In this document: positions 8,097-35,685 of the stretch, piece by piece | How positions within the stretch are numbered: the first letter of the stretch is position 1 | Layout: each line of letters opens with the position of its first letter | Source: Brachionus manjavacas | Lineage: Eukaryota; Rotifera; Eurotatoria; Ploima; Brachionidae | Direction: 5' to 3' | DNA length: 64,000 nt | NCBI GenBank assembly: GCA_019054805.1 | Contig: JAHQIY010000007.1 | Coordinates: 129,501 to 193,500 of the forward strand | Program-made: the position numbers and the translations under genes | Notes under the pieces: model-generated | Databases searched by the model: none | Seen by the model: the letters and a program-made list of their open reading frames with translations, nothing else | What the model was told of the DNA's origin: nothing

Positions 8097-8195
8097 TATT
8101 AATTTTTGTTATTTTTTATTTTATAAAGTTACGCTTGCCGATTAAAAAAAAAATAGTTTTTAAAAATATAAAATTTGAATCTAAATTAGGTTTAA

Positions 8196-8233
<38 letters not shown>
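8196..8233. repeat. (AAT)n microsatellite, LINE 3' tail
   Basis: About thirteen AAT units. It lies immediately 3' (on the minus strand) of a LINE 3' end, as expected for LINEs that terminate in a short tandem repeat instead of poly(A). Confidence 0.8.
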
Positions 8234-8238
<5 letters not shown>

Positions 8239-8735
8239 GCTACGGCAAGCATGCTTGCGGAGATGTCTTACTAGGAAGACATCTATGGTAGCTAGATGCA
8301 TTGAAATGTATTTACATACTTTCTCAGGTAGGCTGTTCCACACTCTAATCACACGATTTGTGAAAAAAATTTCCCGCTGGGCGTAGTTGATAGGTGCTTG
8401 GACGGACAGGCGCCTCTTGTCCCATCTAATACCTTGTGCTGGTCCTGATTGGGAAAGCGAGCTGCAATGTGGGGGAGGTCTGACCCAATCTATGTTATTT
8501 AAGCCGCTTCTTATCTGGAACATCTGGATAATGTCTCCTCTTGCCCTGCGTTCGCTCAGAGTGGGCAAACCCAAGATGGAAAGGCGATCGCTGTAGCTTA
8601 AGCTACGGATCCTTGGAACGAGTTTGGTTGCTCGTCTTTGAGCTTTCTCAAGAATGTTGCTGTCCTTGGCAGTGTAGGGAGACCAGACCACTGCAGCGTA
8701 CCCAAATGGGGCCTGACATATGCGCAGTATAGCGT
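8196..8735 (-). mobile_element. 5'-truncated LINE 3' end (CR1/L2-like)
   Basis: On the minus strand an open frame of about 180 residues carries the C-terminal end of a LINE reverse transcriptase: E-K-A-Q-R-R-A-T-K-L-V, then R-R-A-R-G-D-I-I-Q-M-F, then F-F-T-N-R-V-I-R-V-W-N-S-L-P, followed by the tail microsatellite. There are no internal stops, so it is young compared with the LINE next to it. The 5' truncation point (about 8735) abuts another LINE running the opposite way. Confidence 0.8.
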
Positions 8736-8744
8736 TATGAAGGT

Positions 8745-9900
8745 AATGTTAGTCCAGAATTTAAACGTTCTTCTCAGCTGTCCAAGGAAATAATAGAAAA
8801 GCTAATAAGAGATGAAATGATAAGGCATTTGTTGGAACACAATTTACTGTCGGTGCATCAGCATGGATTTTCACGCTAAATCCTGTATAGCCAACTTGCT
8901 AGAAACTCTAAATATCATCAATGAGACATTGAAAAGAGGATTCAGTGCTGTAATAGTATTCTTGGATTTTGCGAAGACATTTGATCGCGTCTCGCATTAG
9001 TTACTTAAGATCAAGTTAAAGAGTTATGGATTTACGGAAGAGCTTTTGGGGTGGCTAGAAAATTTTCTTCAAGATAGAAAACAGAGAGTAGTAATCGGTC
9101 AGTACGAATCTAATTGGGTTGATGTTCTAATTGGGGTCCCATAGAGTTCAGTTCTTGATCCGCTACTATTCTTGATACTATCTCTGACCAGTTCAGAGAT
9201 AAAAGTCACTTTTGTAAGCTGTTTGCGGATGACAGCAAATTGATAAGTGTCATTAGAAATACTGGTGATCAAATTGAAGATGACATTGACAAGATGGTTG
9301 AGTGGTCGAAGCGCTGGAGTATGGAGTTCAATGAGTCTCAATGTATAGTAATGCATATTGGCAACTCAAAAATTGCCAGGCAATAAATCTCAATGTTAAA
9401 CCCGATTGATAACAGAGCTGGATTAGCTAAGACTACTACTGAGCGCGACATTGGTGTAATGGTGAACAACAAACTCAAATGGAATGATCAAAATGATAGC
9501 TGTGTTATAAAAGCTAATAACATGCTTGGTATGCTCAAAAGAACATTTAAGTATTGGGATACTCAATCATTTTTGCAACTTTACAAAACATTTGTTAGAC
9601 CCCATCTTGAAAACTGTGTACCTGCTTGGAATCCTTATTTAAAAAAGGATATATTTCGACTAGAACAAGTACAAAGACGAGCAACGAAACTTGTTTCCCA
9701 GATAAGAAGCTTGAATTATGAGTCAAGTTTAGCTTATTTAGGATTGGAAATTCTAAAAGAAAGGCGAGAGCGTGGAACGTCAGTTGTCACAGCAAGTTCG
9801 ATTAACCAGTTTAAAAGCAGACTGGATAATGTCGGTAGAAATAATAAAAAATGAAAAGTCTACTATAGCGGGACTAATTTAGTCTTCCTGCTTTGTGATT
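8745..9900 (+). mobile_element. LINE reverse transcriptase, interrupted by stops
   Basis: Reading across frames, the order of reverse-transcriptase motifs is intact: the segment before H-Q-H-G-F, then F-L-D-F-A-K-T-F-D-R-V (palm motif A), G-V-P followed by a stop where Q is expected, F-A-D-D-like text near 9225, then an open frame 9393-9854 with the post-catalytic R-R-A-T-K-L-V region and a final R-R-E-R-G. Stops at the H-Q-H-G-F motif, before the G-V-P motif and elsewhere show it is inactive. It is of the CR1/L2 type by motif order. It is the only long copy in the window matching the 206-bp piece at 1375-1580. Confidence 0.75.
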
Positions 9901-16700: not shown

Positions 16701-19700
16701 CAGGATGGAGAAGAGTACAAAAATCCTTATCGGCAGATAATAACAAGCTGAAACGCTCACGAGTGATATGTACTTTTAAAAAACAATTAGAAAATGAAGA
16801 ATTAGTCGATTCAGAAATCAAAGTCAAAATACAAAACGCATGAAATCAAGTATGGTAAAAATATGGTAAAAAAAGTGAATTGCAAATGTGTTTATTCAGA
16901 TTGTCCAGCGGAAATTTATATGATTTATTTAAAAAATCAATTTAAAATTTCTAAATTTGAAAGTAATAGTAAATGAATTAAAAAAAATTCAAAAAAACAC
17001 TCTCTATTTAAAAAGAGAAAATGCTAAAAACGAGATCTATTGCTTGTGGATGCAACATGTAAAATTATTTTTCAAGGGTTTCCTTTGTTAATAGTTGACA
17101 CTCCTGATTATCAAAAACATTTTCATCCGATAGCTATTGCCATTTGTGTTAGTGAAAATGAATAAGATTACGAATATCTTTTTAAAGCCATTTTAAAAAT
17201 GATTACTAATGATTACTACCCCAGATTACTACCCCAAATTATATTTTGGCTGATGCTGTTAATGGTATGACCAATGGTTTTATAAGTGTCTTTGGAAATG
17301 ATTTTAAGAAAATTGTGTGCTGGGCTCAGACTGAGCGAGCTGTGGATAAAAAATTTGAAAAATTAAAATATTTGACAATTGATGATGTCAAAACTAAAAA
17401 ATTATTTATGATGGATCCGCATATGTTACAATTATCATACAATCAATCAAGGTATGAAGTTATCAATTGTTTAAGAAAAAATGGTCCGATTACAAAGAGT
17501 TTTTTGTATATTGGGATAAATAATGGATCAAATCAAAGAATTTTGGTTGGTTCGAAGGTCATGCTCCAGGATATCCAGGCAAAAATAATGCCCTAGAAGG
17601 AACAACGATGGTCAACTGATCAAAAAGTGGGAATATGAACCGCTGATTAAAAATGATTACTGGTACGATGCACTTGCATATGCAGTTAAAAAACTTTTCT
17701 AAAATATAATCAATCTTGTGATATCTATTTGTTTACATTAGATAAGTTGGTCGATTTGGAACTATATTTAGATAATTTAGAATGTGACTATTAGATGGGG
17801 GTAATTGTATTGATGAATGTGAATTTGTTTCTAATATAGACCTCAATACATTCTTTCAATACAATCATTCGGTTCGATTGGTGAAATTGGATGAACAAAA
17901 TTGGAAGTTTTCGCCTAAACTTTTCTCGTTCTATGTTGATGAACTAATAAGACAAATTGAAACAGACGAGAGTGGTACTAAAATATCGGATGAGCTCAAA
18001 CTAGACATTATTGTATACGCTGACGATATCCTGCTCCTAAGCACAAGCAAAAAAGGGCTACAAGATTTGATAGACATAGCTGAAACAAATGGTGAAAAGA
18101 ATTACATATCTTACAACCCCTAGAAAACTGTCTTTATGATCTTTAACAAAAAAACACAAAGACCAGCTGAAGTGCTACGAAAAGATATATGGCAATACAA
18201 CGTTAAACTCAACGGAATTGACATAAAACAAGTTAAACAAATGAAATACCTAGGAGTTGAAATCACAGATGATAACAAACATATCGAACACCTAGAAAAA
18301 AGGAAAAAGTCAGCTATGGCGGCACTCATGAAACTAAAGTCACTCGGACTGACTGGTCCAAACCTTCATCCGGTTATGAAAGGGCATCTATATAAAACGT
18401 ACGTCAGACCGGTACTACTATATGGTATAGAGAGTTTATACTTAACTCAAAGAGATACACTTAAGCTTAAACGAATAGAAGGTAACTTAATAAAAACAAT
18501 AATAGGTATTCCGACTAAATGCAAGACAACCAACCTAATGCATGCACTCATGAATGAACCGACCATCGAATACGTCGAGATTATTAAGAACCAATTTATT
18601 GTAAACCTCCTAAGGAACATGTACACCCGAAAAATAGTCGAACAGACCATACACTTAAGACTCAAAGACATAATAAAAGAATTAACTGAGTATGGAGAAG
18701 AGGACCTCGATGACTTACCACTAAAACTAGAAGACCAGTGCAAAGTAAACAAATACGTAACAAAATCAGAAATCAGATAGAATTGTAAGAACAACCCGAT
18801 AGTAGCTGAACTAATAATAATATTCAATTCAAAAAACAGGGATACAATACCGGACAGAATCACACATCTCATTAGATATGATGCTTAATATGAACCCACC
18901 AACTTCCTTTATTTTTATTCTATTTTTATATCAATTGTACAAAGTTGTTTTTTCATAATGTATATAATATTACGGCACGCTTTATTTGACAGTGTACCGG
19001 GAATTATTAATTGGCCTTAGCATAAGCCTAAATAAATAAATAAAATTGGAAGTTTTCATCTTGCTCATGTAAGGATTAACTCAAAGATTATATGTGTAAG
19101 CAAATTATTGTCGTTTTGCTTTCAAAGAAGTCAATTCAAGCTCCAGAAAAATATTTGGATTCGGTAATTGATTACAAATCGAGATCAGGAAGAAAGAAAA
19201 AAGCAATTCCTTGGAATGTTAGGCAATGAATTATTTTTTTATATTTGATTAAAAATAATAAAAATAATTTATTATTTATTTTTATTTATTTATCTGTTTT
19301 CTGTACCGAGCTAGAGCTCCTTCAGAATAATTTAGCTTTAAACTTGATTTTTATAATAAATCTGTATTTTTATATCAATTAAGTAATTTTATGAAAAAAA
19401 GGTAATTTTATATTAATTTAGTATAACCGGTGACAAATTAGTAATTTTAGTTAATGAATTAGCACACGCCATATTTAATTATGAAAATTTATTGTACAAA
19501 AATATAACACTAAGGAAAAATTTGAAGAGCTTCTAGTGATCAAACTTTTCTTTCATCAAGCATAAAGTTCGAGCTTTTATCCATCTTATTATAACCTTTC
19601 CATTCAATAGCTCATCTATTTGGAAAACACCGTTTGAAAAATCAAGACCAAGTTGAATTTGTGAGTTTTATTGGCTCTAAAAACTCCTAATAATATATGA

Positions 19701-25782: not shown

Positions 25783-26478
25783 GTCAATCGATTATAAAAA
25801 ATATTGAAAATATAAGGCCATACTTAAACTAGACCGCTTTCTTACCATCGATGGTACACAAATTGAGAACGTAAGCGAATTCAAATACTTAGCATCAATA
25901 CAAGGATGGGAATACACAAAAAGCATAAAGAGTAGACTTGCCAAAGCAAAGAATGCCTTTGCTAGATTCCGACCAGTATGGAAGTCAACCAGCTACAGCA
26001 AGGAAACAAAACTCAAACTGAACAACATTGTGGTAAAAGCAACACTGATGTACGGTAGCAAATGTTGGGGGATTTGTGAATCTAACAGGAATAGCCTGAA
26101 CACTCTCCTCACTTGAAGCCTGCAAAAGAGCCTCGGGATACATTGGCTTGAGACATTGTCAAATGCTGATCTATACACTAGAATAAATTTAGAACTATTA
26201 AGTCAGTGTTTTAAGAAAATATGGCTTGGGTATGTATTTAGAATGAAAGAAACACAGGTACCAAAAGTACCTTCAGTGTACACCTCAAGGGCGACGTAAG
26301 GTAGAACGACCAGCAATAACATGGAGGTCAACAATCACGAAAGAGCTCGTCTAAATGGAAATGACATGGGGAGAAGCAAGACAAAAGTAATAAGTAAATA
26401 GTAAAAGACAAAAATATTGGTAAATCGATTATAAGAAATAATGAAAATATAAGGCCATTCTTAAACTTGACCGCTTTC
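25783..26478 (+). mobile_element. LINE RT C-terminal fragment between direct repeats
   Basis: 25846-26400 reads I-D-G-T-Q-I-E-N-V-S-E-F-K-Y-L, then A-F-A-R-F-R-P-V-W, L-M-Y-G-S-K-C-W and finally G-R-R-K-V-E-R-P-A-I-T-W-R-S, the C-terminal region of an endonuclease/reverse-transcriptase of the RTE or related type, with frame breaks. It is bracketed by direct repeats of about 60 bp (25783-25841 and 26420-26477, sharing AAAATATAAGGCCAT and GACCGCTTTCT) with about 85% identity by eye. Confidence 0.65.
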
Positions 26479-27211: not shown

Positions 27212-28722
27212 TCATGTTTTTCTTTTTTTAATTTGACTCTTATTTTTTGATCTGTTCATCCATGGAAGAAGATTTTCATTTTCTTTTGTTCGTTTAATAC
27301 GAATCATTTTTTTATGTTTTTTCTTTGATTCCTTGAATAAAATTTTATAGGAAAAAATTAGATTTGAAAATTTTAATTTATTTAATTGTACCTTTACTAA
27401 AACTTCCCTTTTCGGTAACCATTCTTTCCTAGCATTTTCAAGGTCAAAATCTTTTGCTCGACAAAAATAATTGATGGCATCTTTTAACTGATCGTCTTGG
27501 TCAAAATCTGGCAAAAAAGATTTTTTTTCGTTTTGATTTTTGTCCACTTTTGACAGAATTCTCGGAATTTCTTTCTTATTAGCAAAATTGTCTTCATCTT
27601 CTTCACTTTCGTTTTCAGAAGACGAATAATTTGATTTCTTTGACTTGTCAAAACCAAAGCCTTTGGTAAAAATATTTTTTTTGAATTCGTTTCTGAAAAC
27701 CGTATCCTCATGGACTTCAATATCGGCATCAACTTCATTTTCATCCGTAAATTTAAATTTAAACACGTCATTAGAGGAAAATAAATCTTTTATATTTGGC
27801 TCGACTTGGAAAAATTTTTCACCATCTTTATTTTCCTCTTCTTTTTCTTCTTCGACTTCACATTCAGACTCATCATTTTGTTCATCAATTTTTTCATCTT
27901 CACTTTCAGATTCATCATTTTTTTCATCAATTCTTTCATCTTCACTTGACTCTACCGAACTTTGGTCGCTTTCAGATTCCTTTACTTCATAAACTCTATG
28001 ATTTGACTTAGTAGGGTCATAGCGAACAATTTTGTTTCGCTCCATTCCGCTATCAATTGCTAATTTGTTCAATTTGAATTTTTTCAAATCGCTTTCTTTG
28101 TCCAGCAAACTTTTAGGCTTTATAATTTGTTTGCCAGTAATTTCTTCCAAAATTTTAAGTGAATTCAAATTTTCGGTTTTCAGCTTATTTTTGCTTGTTT
28201 TTTCATGAGATGATTTTATAGCTGTGTCCACTTCGTCTTCGACGAAACGATCGTCTATTTTAAAACGCGAATCATCATTTGAAAATTTCGATTTCAAGTA
28301 AATAAGCTTTAAAATTTCTAAATATCATTCAATATTTTTTATCTTTTGTAGCTTACCTGATTTGCTTTATTCTCTTCCAATTTTAGCTTTGATTCAAACA
28401 TTTCTACAGCCTCTTTTTTTTGCTGGTCATATTTTTCGTTCGAGGCACCTGAATCCGAATCGGATTCAATTAGTTTAAATTTTTTATTTCCGATTGCATT
28501 TTTAGCTTTTAAAGATACTGATGTTTCCATATATTTCTCTTCTTCATCTTCAGAGCCAGATTCACTGAATATTACTTTTTTGGGCTTTTTATCAATTAAA
28601 TCCAAGCCATTTAAACTCGACCGGATCAAGCTTTTTTTAATTTTGAATTCATTCAATTTTTCTTTTAAAGATTCAAGTCTTCTTTTGTTGGATTCTTCTA
28701 TTTTCAAATTTTTCGAGTCCAT
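27212..28722 (-). CDS. NOL8: NOL8-like nucleolar protein lacking an RRM
   Basis: Exons 28722-28357, 28306-27392, 27331-27212; 466 residues. The order of short conserved blocks follows the C-terminal half of NOL8: R-R-L-E-S-L-K-E-K ... S-L-I-R-S-S-L-N-G-L-D near the start, the acidic serine run, S-R-F-K-I-D-D-R-F at about residue 135, N-K-I-V-R-Y-D-P-T, long acidic E/D/S tracts, then L-K-D-A-I-N-Y-F-C-R and E-S-K-K-K-H-K-K-M near the end. NOL8 is a nucleolar protein linked to ribosome biogenesis. The human protein is more than twice as long and starts with an RRM; no RRM exon was found upstream, so this is either a short form or a missed distant exon. The last intron (27332-27391) is exactly 60 nt and open in frame. 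Identity rests on short motifs in a low-complexity protein. Confidence 0.6.
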
Positions 28723-29375
28723 TTTTTAAACCAAATCCTAGATAATTTAATTTTCAAAAAAAATTCTTAAAACATGTTTATTTTAAATTTTATTAGAAAC
28801 TGCTTAATGCAAATGCATTCATACATCTTTTTACAAATTGATAATTGATAATTGATTTAACTTAACAATTTTTTACTTTTTTTAAATGTTTAATTTAAAA
28901 AAATAGTTAATGCATTAAAAAAGTAACAATAATGGCTATCAATATTTATTTATTTATTTTCTTATTAAATGACAGATTTCGTTTGATGCTTTATTTAACA
29001 AAAAAAGTTTATAAAAAATTATTCTTTGGGCAATTTAGATTTTGCTCCAAACATACTAACTTATTTAATTAATTTAAAAATTGATATATCATACCTGGCA
29101 TTTTTTCATATCATTTATCTTTATAAAATGAAAAATTTTTTTTTTTTTTAAATTTTTTGTCATATTTTTGAAGTCTCGTTTTAACATATAAAGCTCTGCG
29201 ATATTGTATCTTAATTTAAAAATTTAAAAATATATTGAAAATCGATTGTCGATTTGTGAAGTTAATTTTGCAATATAAATAAAAATAAATTTTAAGGTTT
29301 TTATTCAAATTTTTTTTGCCTTTTGTCAAACTATACACTTATTGTGTTAATTATCCTAAAAAAATATTTGATATA
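28723..29375. other. Gene-free AT-rich stretch
   Basis: Upstream side of the NOL8-like gene. No RRM-coding exon or other gene seen. Confidence 0.4.
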
Positions 29376-31121
29376 CAGTAGCGCTACGCCACATGGATTT
29401 TACGTAAATTTACGTCAAATTACGTTAATTTACGTAATTTTACGTAAAAAAAAGTAAATTTACGTAAATTAACGTAAAGATAGAAAAGTAAAATTACGTT
29501 TATTAACTTAAAATAACGTAAATTAACTTAATTTTACGTAAATTTAATTTTTTTACGTAAAATGTAAAACGGCCAAAAAACAGTCGAAAATTCAATATTT
29601 TAGACGATTTTTTTGAAAATTTGAATTTTCTGAGTTTTTTAACTAAAATTTTCAAAAAAGTAAATTTACGTAAATTTTCGTAAAATTTCATTTTTTTACC
29701 AGGTAAAATTTGGTAAAATTTGGTAAATTTTCGTAAAATTTCGTAAAAAAAAGTAAAAAAATGTAAATTTCTCAGATTTTATTTATTTCTTTAGTTTCTA
29801 AGTTTTAATTTCTGTTTATAAAGATAATACAATGAAAAGCTTAAGAAATAAGCTTAAGAAAATTATTTATTTTTTGAACAAACACGAGTTAAAAGTTTAA
29901 TTTACCTTTGATTTCCAAAAACAATTTATCATCTTTTTTTTGATAAAATCCGATGGTTTTGTTCAAATCATCCGGGAATTTTTCCTTCAACTTTTTACGA
30001 AGCTCGTTAGTAAAATCTTTTGAGTGTCTAAAAATTAAAATTTTCTTTAAATTAAGCTTTATCTTCAATTTATTTTTACATATGTTTGAGAGTTCATCCT
30101 CGGATTAGGTTTGGAAAAACTTTAAAAGAGATTTCGACGCAGTTATTTCAACTTAATCAAAAATTTAACCAGCCAGTCAATCAAAATAATTCAGACCAAA
30201 TTAGCGTGAAATCGGCTCAACCTGAGACCTTAATATCCCCGCGTTTGAAGCGAAGAGCGGCTACACCGGAATTAATTGAATCCGAGGATGAACTCTCAAA
30301 CATATGTAAAAATAAATTGAAGATAAAGCTTAATTTAAAGAAAATTTTAATTTTTAGACACTCAAAAAGATTTTACTAACGAGCTTCGTAAAAAGTTGAA
30401 GGAAAAATTCCCGGATGATTTGAACAAAACCATCGGATTTTATCAAAAAAAAGATGATAAATTGTTTTTGGAAATCAAAGGTAAATTAAACTTTTAACTC
30501 GTGTTTGTTCAAAAAATAAATAATTTTCTTAAGCTTATTTGAAAAAGTTTGTTCCGTCTAAAAGTGATTTTAGTACGGCCTGGTTTAATGCAACGAACAG
30601 TATGAAAACCGATAGAGCAGCTGCAAAAAATAAGTATAGACATAAACTTTTGTGTTTTTTTCATTGTATTATCTTTATAAACAGAAATTAAAACTTAGAA
30701 ACTAAAGAAATAAATAAAATCTGAGAAATTTACATTTTTTTACTTTTTTTTACGAAATTTTACGAAAATTTACCAAATTTTACCAAATTTTACCTGGTAA
30801 AAAAATGAAATTTTACGAAAATTTACGTAAATTTACTTTTTTGAAAATTTTAGTTAAAAAACTCAGAAAATTCAAATTTTCAAAAAAATCGTCTAAAATA
30901 TTGAATTTTCGACTGTTTTTTGGCCGTTTTACATTTTACGGTAATTTTGGTAATTTTACGTAAAATAACGTAAATTTACGTTATTTTACGTTAATAAACG
31001 TAATTTTACTTTTCTATCTTTACGTTAATTTACGTAAATTTACTTTTTTTTACGTAAAATTACGTAAATTAACGTAATTTGACGTAAATTTACGTAAAAT
31101 CCATGTGGCGTAGCGCTACTG
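29376..31121. mobile_element. Giant inverted-repeat (foldback) element
   Basis: Ends read CAGTAGCGCTACGCCACATG on both sides, flanked by TA (or TATA). The left arm 29376-30106 (about 730 bp) is the reverse complement of 30279-31121 apart from about 112 extra bases in the right arm (around 30540-30660) and small changes. Only 172 bp (30107-30278) is unpaired. The outer half of each arm is packed with TTTACGTAAA-type units. CAGT ends with TA flanks recall Tc1/mariner/pogo-type elements, but no transposase is recognisable. Confidence 0.85.
30086..30660 (+). CDS. Spliced ORF inside the foldback element, unknown protein
   Basis: Three exons keep frame across two consistent introns: about 30086-30305 (ends I-C or, spliced, I-Y), 30359-30480 and 30539 onward. 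The product reads, in pieces, P-R-L-K-R-R-A-A-T-P-E-L-I-E-S-E-D, then D-F-T-N-E-L-R-K-K-L-K-E-K-F-P-D-D, K-D-D-K-L-F-L-E-I-K, and S-D-F-S-T-A-W-F-N-A-T-N-S-M with a basic end. No start codon is certain and the 3' end is not clear. The second exon and both introns are also present, mirrored, in the left arm; the third exon lies largely in the part unique to the right arm. It may be an element-encoded DNA-binding protein or a captured host fragment. I do not recognise the family. Confidence 0.5.
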
Positions 31122-31734
31122 TATAAAATATTTGTGTGAAATATCTAAATTTTAATAATAATACTAGCAAAAGTAATAATAATTTATTAACAAATTAAAA
31201 TGGCTCAAAATGAATTTTTTGATTTTAACTAAATTTGTTAATTTTTGTTAAAATCTTTTTTTACCACAATATCTATTTTGAAGAAGTTATTAATGTATTA
31301 TTTGGACAAAATTGCTACCAACTTAACTATGTCTAGCTAATATTGTCTTGAATAGTTTTTCAACTTTTATTTCAAAATTTAAGATTCCAAAATATAAAAT
31401 AACTTTTAAAAAAATTTTGAATAAAATACCCCAAATTTTTAAAAAATAACCCTAAATGTTAAATTGAATACCTAAAAATTAACAATTATACAGTAAAAAA
31501 ATTAACACCTTTTCAATTAAAACAAATTTTTCAATTTTTTTATTAAAAGAAGCTCAAATACTAAAAAAAAAATTTTTTTGATTTGACACATAATTTTTTA
31601 AAAAGACTTAGATTTCGATAATGTGTCATGAATTATTCTATGGTCTCATTGAAAATCAAACCTATGGAAAATTCGATGGTATAAACATTACAATTGTCAT
31701 CATGTGATAACAATTGATTACAATCGTAAGAATT

Positions 31735-32692: not shown

Positions 32693-35685
32693 TTATTTTA
32701 AATATTTTTTGGGAAAAATTACAAAGATTTGTACAAAAAAAAAACCTATCGATGAAAACAAAGCACCACACACAAGAATAATCTTGTTTCCAAACGTTGA
32801 TGTCAAAAATGACATAAATGAGGAAACTATAATTTGAGATAAAAAATGACAAGAACCAAGTATTGCGCAATCGATTCCAAAGCCTCTTTTCGATCCTGGC
32901 GATCCACCTGAGCACAAAACAAATTGTTTGTCATTATGAAATTCATACAATAATTGATATGGAATGGTTGTTAGTGTTGTAAGCATGAAACCAAAACATG
33001 AACAAAAAGGAAGAATGGTTACTATGCTATTTAAATAAAAAATAGTCACGCAGCAAAAAATATAAAAGAAAAATGTAAATAAAAACAAAGTCTTGGGCGT
33101 ATATTTTTCCATTAGAAATTTTTCAACAACAACTAAAAATAAAATACAAATATTAAAAAATAAATAAATAAAAATTTTAAAATTTTAGTGCTTTACTTGC
33201 TGAAACTGCAGAGCTAATGGAATAAGTAAGTAAACACCATGATCCCATTTTGATGCCGTATTCATACATCATGAAATCAGTTGAATCTCGATCAGCTGAC
33301 GGATCTCCATGGTAAATATTCTTAGATTTGAATTTTTTGCTTGAAATTAAATTTTTTTCTTTCTTTTTTGAATTACCTGAGCGATGTAATCCGTAAAAAA
33401 CAATGTTGTTGAATAAAATGCCAGCCATCCTATTGTTTGACAAATAAATAATCGTCTAAGCTCAGTGGGCATCTAAAACTATTTCCTTAGAACTAATTCA
33501 AAAATTTAAAGGATTTGAGGCACTTGTTTTGATTCCAAATTTTTCCTTTAGATTAAATTTATGTTTATTCAACAAATGATTTAAGCTTAATTGAATAAAC
33601 TCGACGTCAAAAAAAGAACTTAATTTATCTTTTTGTATTGATCATTTGAATTTTTGTATACAATTTAAATTTTTCTAGTGGCAGATATTTTTATTTTATT
33701 GAGTCTTTAATTATTTAATCTATCAAAGTATTTTTTATTTTAATTTTTTTTATAAAATATTTTAGTTTTTAAAATAAAATTCAATTTCCAAAACAGGTTG
33801 AAAGAGAGAATGAAAAATGCTACATTTAAAGAATTTTTGCTTCAGCTAAAAATAGTTCCCTGCAAATGCTGCAATTCTTTGTGTTTTGCCAGTAAAGGTA
33901 TCGTACAGTTTTTGCAAACATCTGTTAAGCAATTCATCCTTTACCTCCAGCTAACTATTTTTTTATATATGTTAAACTTTTATTTTAATTTAAAGTTTTA
34001 TGTTTAGAATAGATTTTTTTTCATAATTTATATCTAATAGATTTTTTTGTTAAAATAATTATTCTGCCCATAGGGCTTTAAATTAATAAGAAAAAAATAA
34101 ACAAATTTAGAATAATTTTTAAAAGAAGACTTCTTGATTTTTTTAAAAATTTTTTTAGATTTTATGAAATTTAGTCAAGAACAAAATGATAAAAAATCTA
34201 GTAACAAAATCTCTTCAAAATTCACTATACTAGAATATAGTGCGATTTAATCTCTGCTAAATTTGCAGAATTTTACCAGATGTATGGTAATTTTAAATTT
34301 TAAAATTTTTTCAAAAATACTTTTTTAGATTAAAAATTTTACTAAAAATTTTGAATCCTTTAAAAAACAATTCAAAATAAAAATTGACTAAATAATTAAA
34401 AAAATATCCCTTTTAAAAAAATCTTCTACCAAATTATTATATTGCCTTATTTTATTTTTTTACTTTTCAGCATTGTAATGATACTTTTTATTTTTTTTGA
34501 AAAGGTTCTATATTTTTGTGTTTAAAATTTGATATCATATTTGAATTGATTCTTTACAAAAACAGCCAATAATGTATTCTCATAATAAAAGTAATTAACT
34601 AAGAAAAAATCAGAACTAAACTTTTTGCCCCTTATCCTTTTTAAATTAAATTACATTAAAAAAAGATTTTGTCAAAATTTTCACGAAAGAATCATTTTTT
34701 TCCTCTGTCTCTTTCATACCAAAAATATCGCTATCTACTATTTCATCTAAAATCAAAAAAATTTAAAAATTTTCCTAGCAAAATAAATCAGATGGCTCTC
34801 ACAAGTTGACTCAATCTCGAAAGGTTCTTCTCGGGCGGCTGTTAAAGTAAGATAAAGGCAAAAAATGAATATAATACTCATGAGTACGAATAAAATTTGA
34901 CTTTCATCTCCCAAACCGGATAGAAATGAATGCTTCCATTCAACTGCAGACAAAATGTAACCCAACGAACCACCGATGCCTCCAAGAAACGCGTGCAAAT
35001 TGAGCGCCATGTGTTGATCTCTCGAGTTGCATGAATCTAAAAGATACGCTCGCAAAGGACTGTCGCATGTATCAGCTGAAAAATCAAGAATTGTTACACC
35101 AATAGCTGTCAAAGCTATTCCATAAATTGGAATCTAGAATCTAGTTTACAATTTTATTATAAAAGAAAAACAACAAAAATATTACTCTAGAAAAATCGTC
35201 ACCTAGCCACATGCCAAAATGACGTCCTTTTAAAATCAATGATATGCCTATATATGAAGCAATTCCCAAGGCGAAAATAAATGGTCGCCTCCGTCCGTAT
35301 TTGCTTTGACACCTATCGCTCCATGCTCCCAAAATAGGCTGAAAAACAAAGCCGAAAATTGGACTCAAAAAATAAACATACGAATAAATGTTGTGCGAAA
35401 CATTTGATTCTAATAGAATTGGCACGGTCAAAGCAATCTCCAAACTAAACACAAGCTCGATTCCGAAGTAGACGGCTCCCATTTTGAGGAGTTCGAGTTT
35501 GGTTCGACTAGGTCTCTCATCTTTTATTAAAAGCATTTAAGATTTAAAAAATTTATCTTGAAATTTTTTTATTTAGAAAGAAATAAACTAATTTGACAAA
35601 AAATTTACTTGGATTAAATAAAATTTTACTTACATTTAGACAGCTTGTCAAATTCATATGAACCATGACTAATTTTTGGCTCCAT
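32693..35685 (-). CDS. SLC45-family sugar/proton symporter
   Basis: Exons 35685-35634, 35520-35186, 35133-34803, 34746-34655, 33472-33377, 33320-33197, 33132-32693; 489 residues, all phases agree. This is a major-facilitator transporter of the SLC45 (sucrose/H+ symporter-like) family. Visible: V-Y-F-G-I-E-L-V-F-S in helix 1, F-G-F-V-F-Q-P-I-L-G in helix 2, the signature S-D-R ... G-R-R-R-P-F-I in the 2-3 loop, L-D-F-S-A-D and R-A-Y-L-L-D, A-L-N-L-H-A-F followed by G-G-I-G-G-S-L-G-Y, a central cytoplasmic loop, then L-R-R-L-F-I-C and F-F-T-D-Y-I ... H-G-D-P as in the second half of SLC45 proteins. The central loop is far shorter than in human SLC45A1/A4 and closer to A2/A3. The substrate cannot be set from sequence. 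One intron (33473-34654) is 1.2 kb. Confidence 0.88.

Follow-up and report, generated by a model that had tools for sequence, protein, structure and literature searches.

In textbooks, Tc1/mariner transposons are the standard example of an element with one protein, and gene-transfer tools have been built on them. The usual Tc1 form described in the part of PMC7325037 drawn on here has a single open reading frame (ORF), terminal inverted repeats (TIRs) of ~30 bp and a length of ~1300 bp, with Minos as a long-TIR exception. Section 8 of that source presents the ciliate TBE and Tec elements as three-ORF members of Tc1/mariner, with accessory ORFs of which one lies on the opposite strand. TBE genes are also treated in PMC4724952, and the portions of both papers used here report purifying selection on TBE ORFs. 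Here we describe a palindromic element in a 64-kb window (the whole stretch of DNA analysed, 64,000 nucleotides of Brachionus manjavacas contig JAHQIY010000007.1). We found that it very probably derives from a Tc1-like transposon with two genes, as a mobile but non-autonomous form carrying on both sides the end that belongs to the parent's second gene (ORF2). The assembly holding the window comprises 114 Mb in 61 contigs, which we designate C1, C6, C7 and so on, the window being on C7; L numbers denote stretches retrieved from those contigs.

Structure of the palindrome and its second copy

The element occupies positions 29376-31121 of the window (1746 bp), with arms of 731 bp (left) and 843 bp (right) around a loop of 172 bp. 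The arms pair in perfect complementary blocks of 283, 176 and 89 nucleotides and in an outer block of 175 nucleotides at 97%. When aligned to each other they are identical at 719 of 726 positions. The alignment has 6 gaps totalling 122 positions, mainly because ~112 bp are absent from the left arm. The original prediction, made from the letters of the window, was right on the near-perfect palindrome and its loop. From the loop into the right arm, three ORF2 exons splice in one frame up to a stop across GT-AG introns of 52 and 53 bp, and this exon set is mirrored in the left arm minus ~112 bp of the last exon. Both the phase-consistent exons and their mirror image had been predicted.

The tip of the element together with TA (TACAGTAGCGCTACGCCACATGG) has 61 genome matches at no more than 2 mismatches, 33 of them perfect, compared with 0 for a reversed control. 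A flank survey of 20 element rows, in which C22a and C22b are counted with one and the same left end, revealed TA on the left in 20/20 and on the right in 19/20. The element agrees with the predicted inverted duplication of a small TIR element. The inner junction, in which CGGATT passes through AGG to TTTGG, was found at exactly two places in the assembly, namely the window copy and a copy on C6 (L013, 5461765-5463610), thereby excluding the case of no other copies that had been raised with the prediction. Across the right arm and loop the two palindromes match at 997 positions out of 999 aligned, with 5 gaps spanning 23 positions, and their left arms differ at 7 of 729 positions with 113 gap positions. 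Their flanks differ, and both lie at TA sites. The occurrence of an identical junction at only two places indicates one founding event followed by a move to a second TA site. As the C6 copy keeps the ~112-bp segment, the left-arm loss in the window copy came later, in line with the predicted decay of one arm.

Two genes head-to-head in the probable parent group

The C23, C6a and C6b relatives of the palindrome are ~2.0 kb long and carry a transposase plus only the end of ORF2; the TIRs of the C23 relative (L010) are 408 bp long and 98% alike. The C1 relative (L009, 2636 bp) carries ORF2, with no transposase match nearby among the matches listed. The C31 copy is the sole member of the palindrome's own family in which both genes were seen. 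Its transposase part resembles C23 at 96%, and the two ORF2 parts resemble C1 at 94% and 91%, the ORF2 part being split by a ~5.9-kb insert resembling a long terminal repeat element, with 266-bp direct repeats at 99% (L057:2918-3183 and L058:6-271).

Both genes together were found in at least 6 copies other than C31, several of them very diverged. Two copies of another family (L059 and L060) are 97.2% alike over 3468 bp; their inverted ends, 361 and 386 bp long, match at 91%. Transposase and ORF2 occupy opposite strands with their starts back to back, and the ends have the form TA-CAGTGGTG (seen in L059). The same head-to-head order appears in L061, L062, L063 and L065, and inverted ends were present within the retrieved stretch of L062 (84 bp at 94%) and L065 (73 bp at 98.6%). 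The flanks of L060 (353-390 and 3825-3862) are inverted repeats of each other, so this copy apparently landed at the centre of a different palindromic element. Genome-wide, at least 18 of 50 ORF2 places have a transposase match within 3 kb, against ~0.4 expected by a rough estimate; 134 of 818 transposase candidates were scored, so that these pairings are a lower bound. The order is head-to-head in 16 of the 18, and one of the two exceptions (C7:5056948) also has a correctly ordered transposase match 762 bp away. Judged from these arrangements, the spliced frame of the palindrome probably belongs to the element itself, as the 3' half of its second gene, and is not a captured host gene.

The transposase matches Pfam DDE_3 above the cut-off (3.3e-12) and the Sleeping Beauty catalytic domain 5cr4 at 3e-15, and its match to HTH_Tnp_Tc3_2 (4.9e-7) falls just below the cut-off, with 30.4 bits against 31.5. 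A D-E spacing of 34 residues (DD34E) was counted by hand on spliced L063, L065 and L010 with GT-AG introns.

The ORF2 protein and the end motif

In our model ORF2 has ~5 exons. Its product comprises an N-terminal block that contains HPFHHLH or something close to it, a second block with VPKNK or VPKKK at its end, a coiled-coil-like middle and a C-terminal block. In gap-free blocks, synonymous differences (pS 0.71-0.94) are saturated and nonsynonymous differences (pN 0.21-0.40) unsaturated in 14 of 15 pairs; the blocks were picked for gap-free alignment, a choice of conserved blocks that lowers pN, and values of 0.00 for the nonsynonymous-to-synonymous rate ratio (dN/dS) stem from infinite dS. 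The nearly identical L061-L065 pair gave a dN/dS of 0.96, that is, no constraint. On these comparisons ORF2 looks to be under constraint.

Pfam searches per exon and per spliced member gave no ORF2 match above cut-off. The best match, SPATA24 (E 0.001), was rejected as a relative at 19.3 bits against a cut-off of 27. A profile search of PDB with E up to 10 returned 30 distinct sequences, comprising 29 hemagglutinins (best 0.0026) and LD22664P; these matches were read as chance because they lie on the coiled-coil-like middle. The homology search of the spliced product that had been suggested with the original prediction thus returned no trusted Pfam or PDB relative. Scanning viral_contigs with ORF2 alignment A1 yielded 237 pattern matches, 0 of them confirmed.

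All 13 occurrences of the word TTACGTAA in the window fall within the 1746-bp element, and the remaining 62,254 bp have 0. It was found only near the ends of L059, L061, L062, L063 and L065 (0 in 5/5 interiors), and 2 of 10 end segments lack it, both of them right ends (L061 and L063). Internal occurrences were seen in small derivatives such as L025. Accessory proteins act on subterminal repeats in other transposon superfamilies. The placement of TTACGTAA suggests a putative protein-binding site.

Other derivatives of the family

A separate palindrome, L014 (C7:4470059-4471911), was formed from the transposase side. It consists of positions 1-586 and 835-1001 of the C23 element, ~5 filler bases, and 1070 back to 1, and its left arm is also deleted, by ~248 bp. 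In C12, an older and partial transposase-side palindrome (L066:263-1539) holds transposase-side pieces in opposite orientations, which suggests that mirror copies formed more than twice. No inverted repeat of at least 50 nucleotides was present in L067 or L068.

Short forms of 871-881 bp (C20, C39 twice, C51) combine ~42 bp of one end with ~832 bp of the ORF2 side. As they share 20-bp flanks in either orientation, they are not four independent insertions; an ACGTAAA-like sequence lies just outside them (L021, L022, L023 and L024), seemingly within a larger repeat. Miniature forms of 230 bp were found in C2 and, twice, in C4. Within the presumed ORF2 intron of the C1 relative (L009:2245-2421) we noted an inverted repeat with 81-nucleotide arms and a 15-nucleotide spacer, perhaps a miniature element, and L057:2537-2715 of the C31 copy has an inverted repeat at the matching place.

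Origin of the palindrome and alternative explanations

The parent would be flanked by TA duplications, and TTACGTAA words would lie in its inverted ends. On one side it would carry a DD34E transposase and on the other the ~5-exon ORF2, both transcribed outward from the middle. In the palindrome a mirror copy of the ORF2-side end (the TIR and the last ORF2 exons) would have taken the place of the transposase side. We infer that, following excision or a break, repair synthesis that had begun in one TIR jumped to the nearly identical TIR of the opposite end and copied inward, and that this inward copy was end-joined to a normal copy of the same end. The loop would then correspond to how much further one copy ran than the other, and some filler bases would remain at the join. 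Short filler is indeed present at the inner junctions, with 3 nucleotides in the ORF2-side palindrome and ~5 in L014. A template switch with end joining would therefore account for mirror, loop and filler alike. Because two good ends were kept, the transposase could move the palindrome in trans.

It is possible, if on balance doubtful, that homologous pairing or conversion between the TIRs made the palindrome instead. The long, 98% alike TIRs of L010 would suit such a process, and in Galileo, according to part of PMC3573991, extended TIRs are explained by copying of TIR1 and adjacent DNA into the TIR2 position. Filler rather than homology at both inner junctions speaks against conversion, which would begin in the same way as the template switch, so that the two accounts overlap. 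A Pack-type history is another alternative: part of a host gene would have been captured by a small TIR or foldback transposon, and an inverted duplication of the transposon would have followed. We regard this as very unlikely. Host-gene capture had been our first reading, in agreement with the captured gene of the original prediction, and it was dropped once copies in C31, C2 and C10 showed ORF2 beside a transposase; that claim is probably wrong, as ORF2 adjoins the transposase in diverged relatives. Spliced exons within a small TIR element are what capture would give, as are ORF2 places without a transposase nearby. It is opposed by the head-to-head arrangement in at least 6 other copies from several diverged families, by saturated synonymous and limited nonsynonymous change in the compared ORF2 blocks, and by the fact that no host-like standalone ORF2 gene was recognised in the inspected part of the 32 places with no transposase match listed within 3 kb. 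An assembly artefact, with the foldback chimera of a single read placed on the chromosome, is extremely improbable. Amplified long-read libraries are known to produce long palindromes artefactually, yet the same junction recurs at one other place, on another contig with different flanks, and the palindrome is therefore not an assembly fold; moreover, the arms differ by 7 substitutions besides the ~112-bp deletion, and both ends fall on TIRs and TA common to many copies. Taken as a whole, the original prediction was sound as an observation and partly so as an interpretation.

Several points weigh against derivation from a mobile two-gene parent. No fully intact two-gene copy was found among those seen: exon 3 of L059 contains a stop, the frame of L060 is shifted and C31 carries its insert. 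L061 and L063 showed no inverted-end pair in the retrieved stretch. Among the matches listed, 32 of the 50 ORF2 places have no transposase within 3 kb, although several of these are known derivatives and the 50 places are not independent, each palindrome being counted twice. Transposase and ORF2 distances among five families correlate only loosely (r 0.65, with 9 of 120 permutations as high). ORF2 may be of host origin long ago. Finally, mobility of the palindrome at the present day would follow only from the near-identity of its copies.

A further question concerns function. At a Mu killer-like locus the palindrome would be transcribed into hairpin RNA and the parent silenced through small RNAs, which we consider unlikely here. 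Minus-strand reading frames on both sides (28339-28725 and 32693-33184) are in its favour, and by analogy a hairpin RNA from the palindrome is plausible: a neighbouring promoter reading through would give an RNA folding into a ~730-bp hairpin directed at ORF2 and the TIRs. The derivative lacks the element centre, where both genes start, so that read-through or a TIR promoter would be needed, and this counts against such a locus. Its target, moreover, would be ORF2 and not the transposase; L014 would target the transposase. Part of PMC3440606 argues against read-through from flanking genes as the route of Mu killer silencing and leaves the hairpin as only a possible contributor. Most likely, the palindrome has no role beyond being carried by the transposase of its family.

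A wider proposal is speculative and, in our judgement, rather unlikely: 1) an undescribed two-gene Tc1-like branch in an animal needs ORF2, an accessory protein of no known relative, acting on the TTACGTAA end arrays; 2) mirror derivatives of either gene arise repeatedly; and 3) where these are transcribed, the resulting hairpins silence the family itself by acting on ORF2 or the transposase. If an animal lineage has long kept such a second gene together with a common end motif, whether some Tc1 elements depend on a partner protein could be tested directly, and the idea of transposons seeding their own silencing would become testable in an animal.

Annotated features and surrounding sequence

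Coordinates of the parts of the element are collected in Table 1.

Table 1. Parts of the palindromic element and its flanks (window coordinates).
Feature	Position	Strand	Basis
TA target-site duplication, left	29374-29375		flank survey of 20 element rows
TIR tip CAGTAGCGCTACGCCACATGG.., left	29376-29397	+	genome-wide tip matches
Left arm, inverted copy of the parent's ORF2-side end	29376-30106	-	C1 element 2636-2176 and 2058-1796, 98.5-98.7%
Left subterminal array, 7 TTACGTAA words	29400-29673		motif count
Site of ~112-bp deletion, left-arm copy of last ORF2 exon	29839-29845		segment retained in C6 palindrome L013
Mirrored ORF2 exon 4	29906-30027	-	splice model
Palindrome junction, CGGATT via AGG to TTTGG	30107-30109		25-base pattern, at most 2 mismatches, 2 assembly matches
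Single-copy loop, part of ORF2 exon 3	30107-30278	+	arm pairing
ORF2 exon 3, 5'-truncated	30108-30305	+	fuller exon in L009 and L058
ORF2 exon 4 (..KDFTNELRKKLKEKFPDDLNKTIGFYQKKDDKLFLEIK)	30358-30480	+	splice model, alignment with relatives
ORF2 exon 5 to stop (..LKKFVPSKSDFSTAWFNATNSMKTDRA..)	30534-30691	+	splice model, alignment with relatives
Right arm, parent's ORF2-side end	30279-31121	+	with most of loop (element 735-1746) = C1 element 1626-2636, 98.6%
Right subterminal array, 6 TTACGTAA words	30823-31097		motif count
TIR tip, right	31100-31121	-	genome-wide tip matches
TA target-site duplication, right	31122-31123		flank survey of 20 element rows

The window is AT-rich, with a GC content of 20-36% per 2 kb. 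Matches above the cut-offs to the Wnt (7) and innexin (49) families mark the assembly as that of an animal; a rotifer spliced-leader sequence had no exact match in it. The neighbouring genes on the minus strand, 27212-28725 and 32693-35536, are presumably NOL8-like and SLC45-like. Both read leftward, so a transcript running on past the right-hand gene would extend across the palindrome. Elsewhere in the window, frames at 8116-8748, 9387-9854, 18124-18780 and 25808-26116 resemble, by eye, C-terminal reverse-transcriptase fragments of non-LTR elements. A search of the window against Rfam gave no match at gathering scores.

Comparison with known systems

The parent group shares with the Tc1 family, of which Sleeping Beauty is an example, the DDE_3-type transposase with its Tc3-like helix-turn-helix just below the Pfam cut-off, the 34-residue spacing of DD34E within IS630-Tc1-mariner, CAGT-type ends and the TA duplication, the last two traits resting on the 20 element rows and L059. 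It lacks the single ORF typical of Tc1, having two genes in L059-L063 and L065; the second, multi-exon gene stands head-to-head with an intron-bearing transposase, and the inverted ends reach ~400 bp. The ciliate TBE and Tec elements likewise combine a Tc1/mariner transposase with accessory ORFs. As far as their descriptions go they are set apart, since TBE encodes 22 kD and zinc-finger/kinase 57 kD proteins and Tec a site-specific recombinase, whereas here there is one ORF2, in an animal. Among the matches listed in our search of the literature on multi-gene Tc1 and rotifer mariner elements, with Repbase and Dfam outside its scope, no animal two-gene Tc1 was recognised.

For the palindrome itself, Mu killer, a derivative of the two-gene MuDR of maize, offers the same design: in the part of PMC3440606 used here, TIRs of the same end surround an inverted partial duplication of the adjacent gene. 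It belongs to another superfamily, and the MuDR genes are convergent whereas transposase and ORF2 are divergent here. In our palindrome ORF2 is duplicated rather than the transposase, and two copies of the palindrome lie at different sites; L014 is the transposase-side analogue of Mu killer, so that two-gene elements can yield Mu killer-like mirror copies from either side. Galileo, of the P superfamily, resembles our element in the growth of TIRs by inverted duplication of adjacent internal DNA (TIR1-F1-F1-TIR2, as given in part of PMC3573991), but differs in transposase superfamily and host, and the part duplicated here is coding. Unlike Foldback (FB), this family has no constant form with long, internally repetitive inverted ends, and the C23-type, C1 and 871-881 bp forms are not full palindromes. 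The closest precedents are Mu killer for the anatomy and the extended TIRs of Galileo for the origin. The original prediction of an undescribed element fits the two-gene Tc1-like parent group better than the palindrome, whose anatomy and way of arising have precedents.
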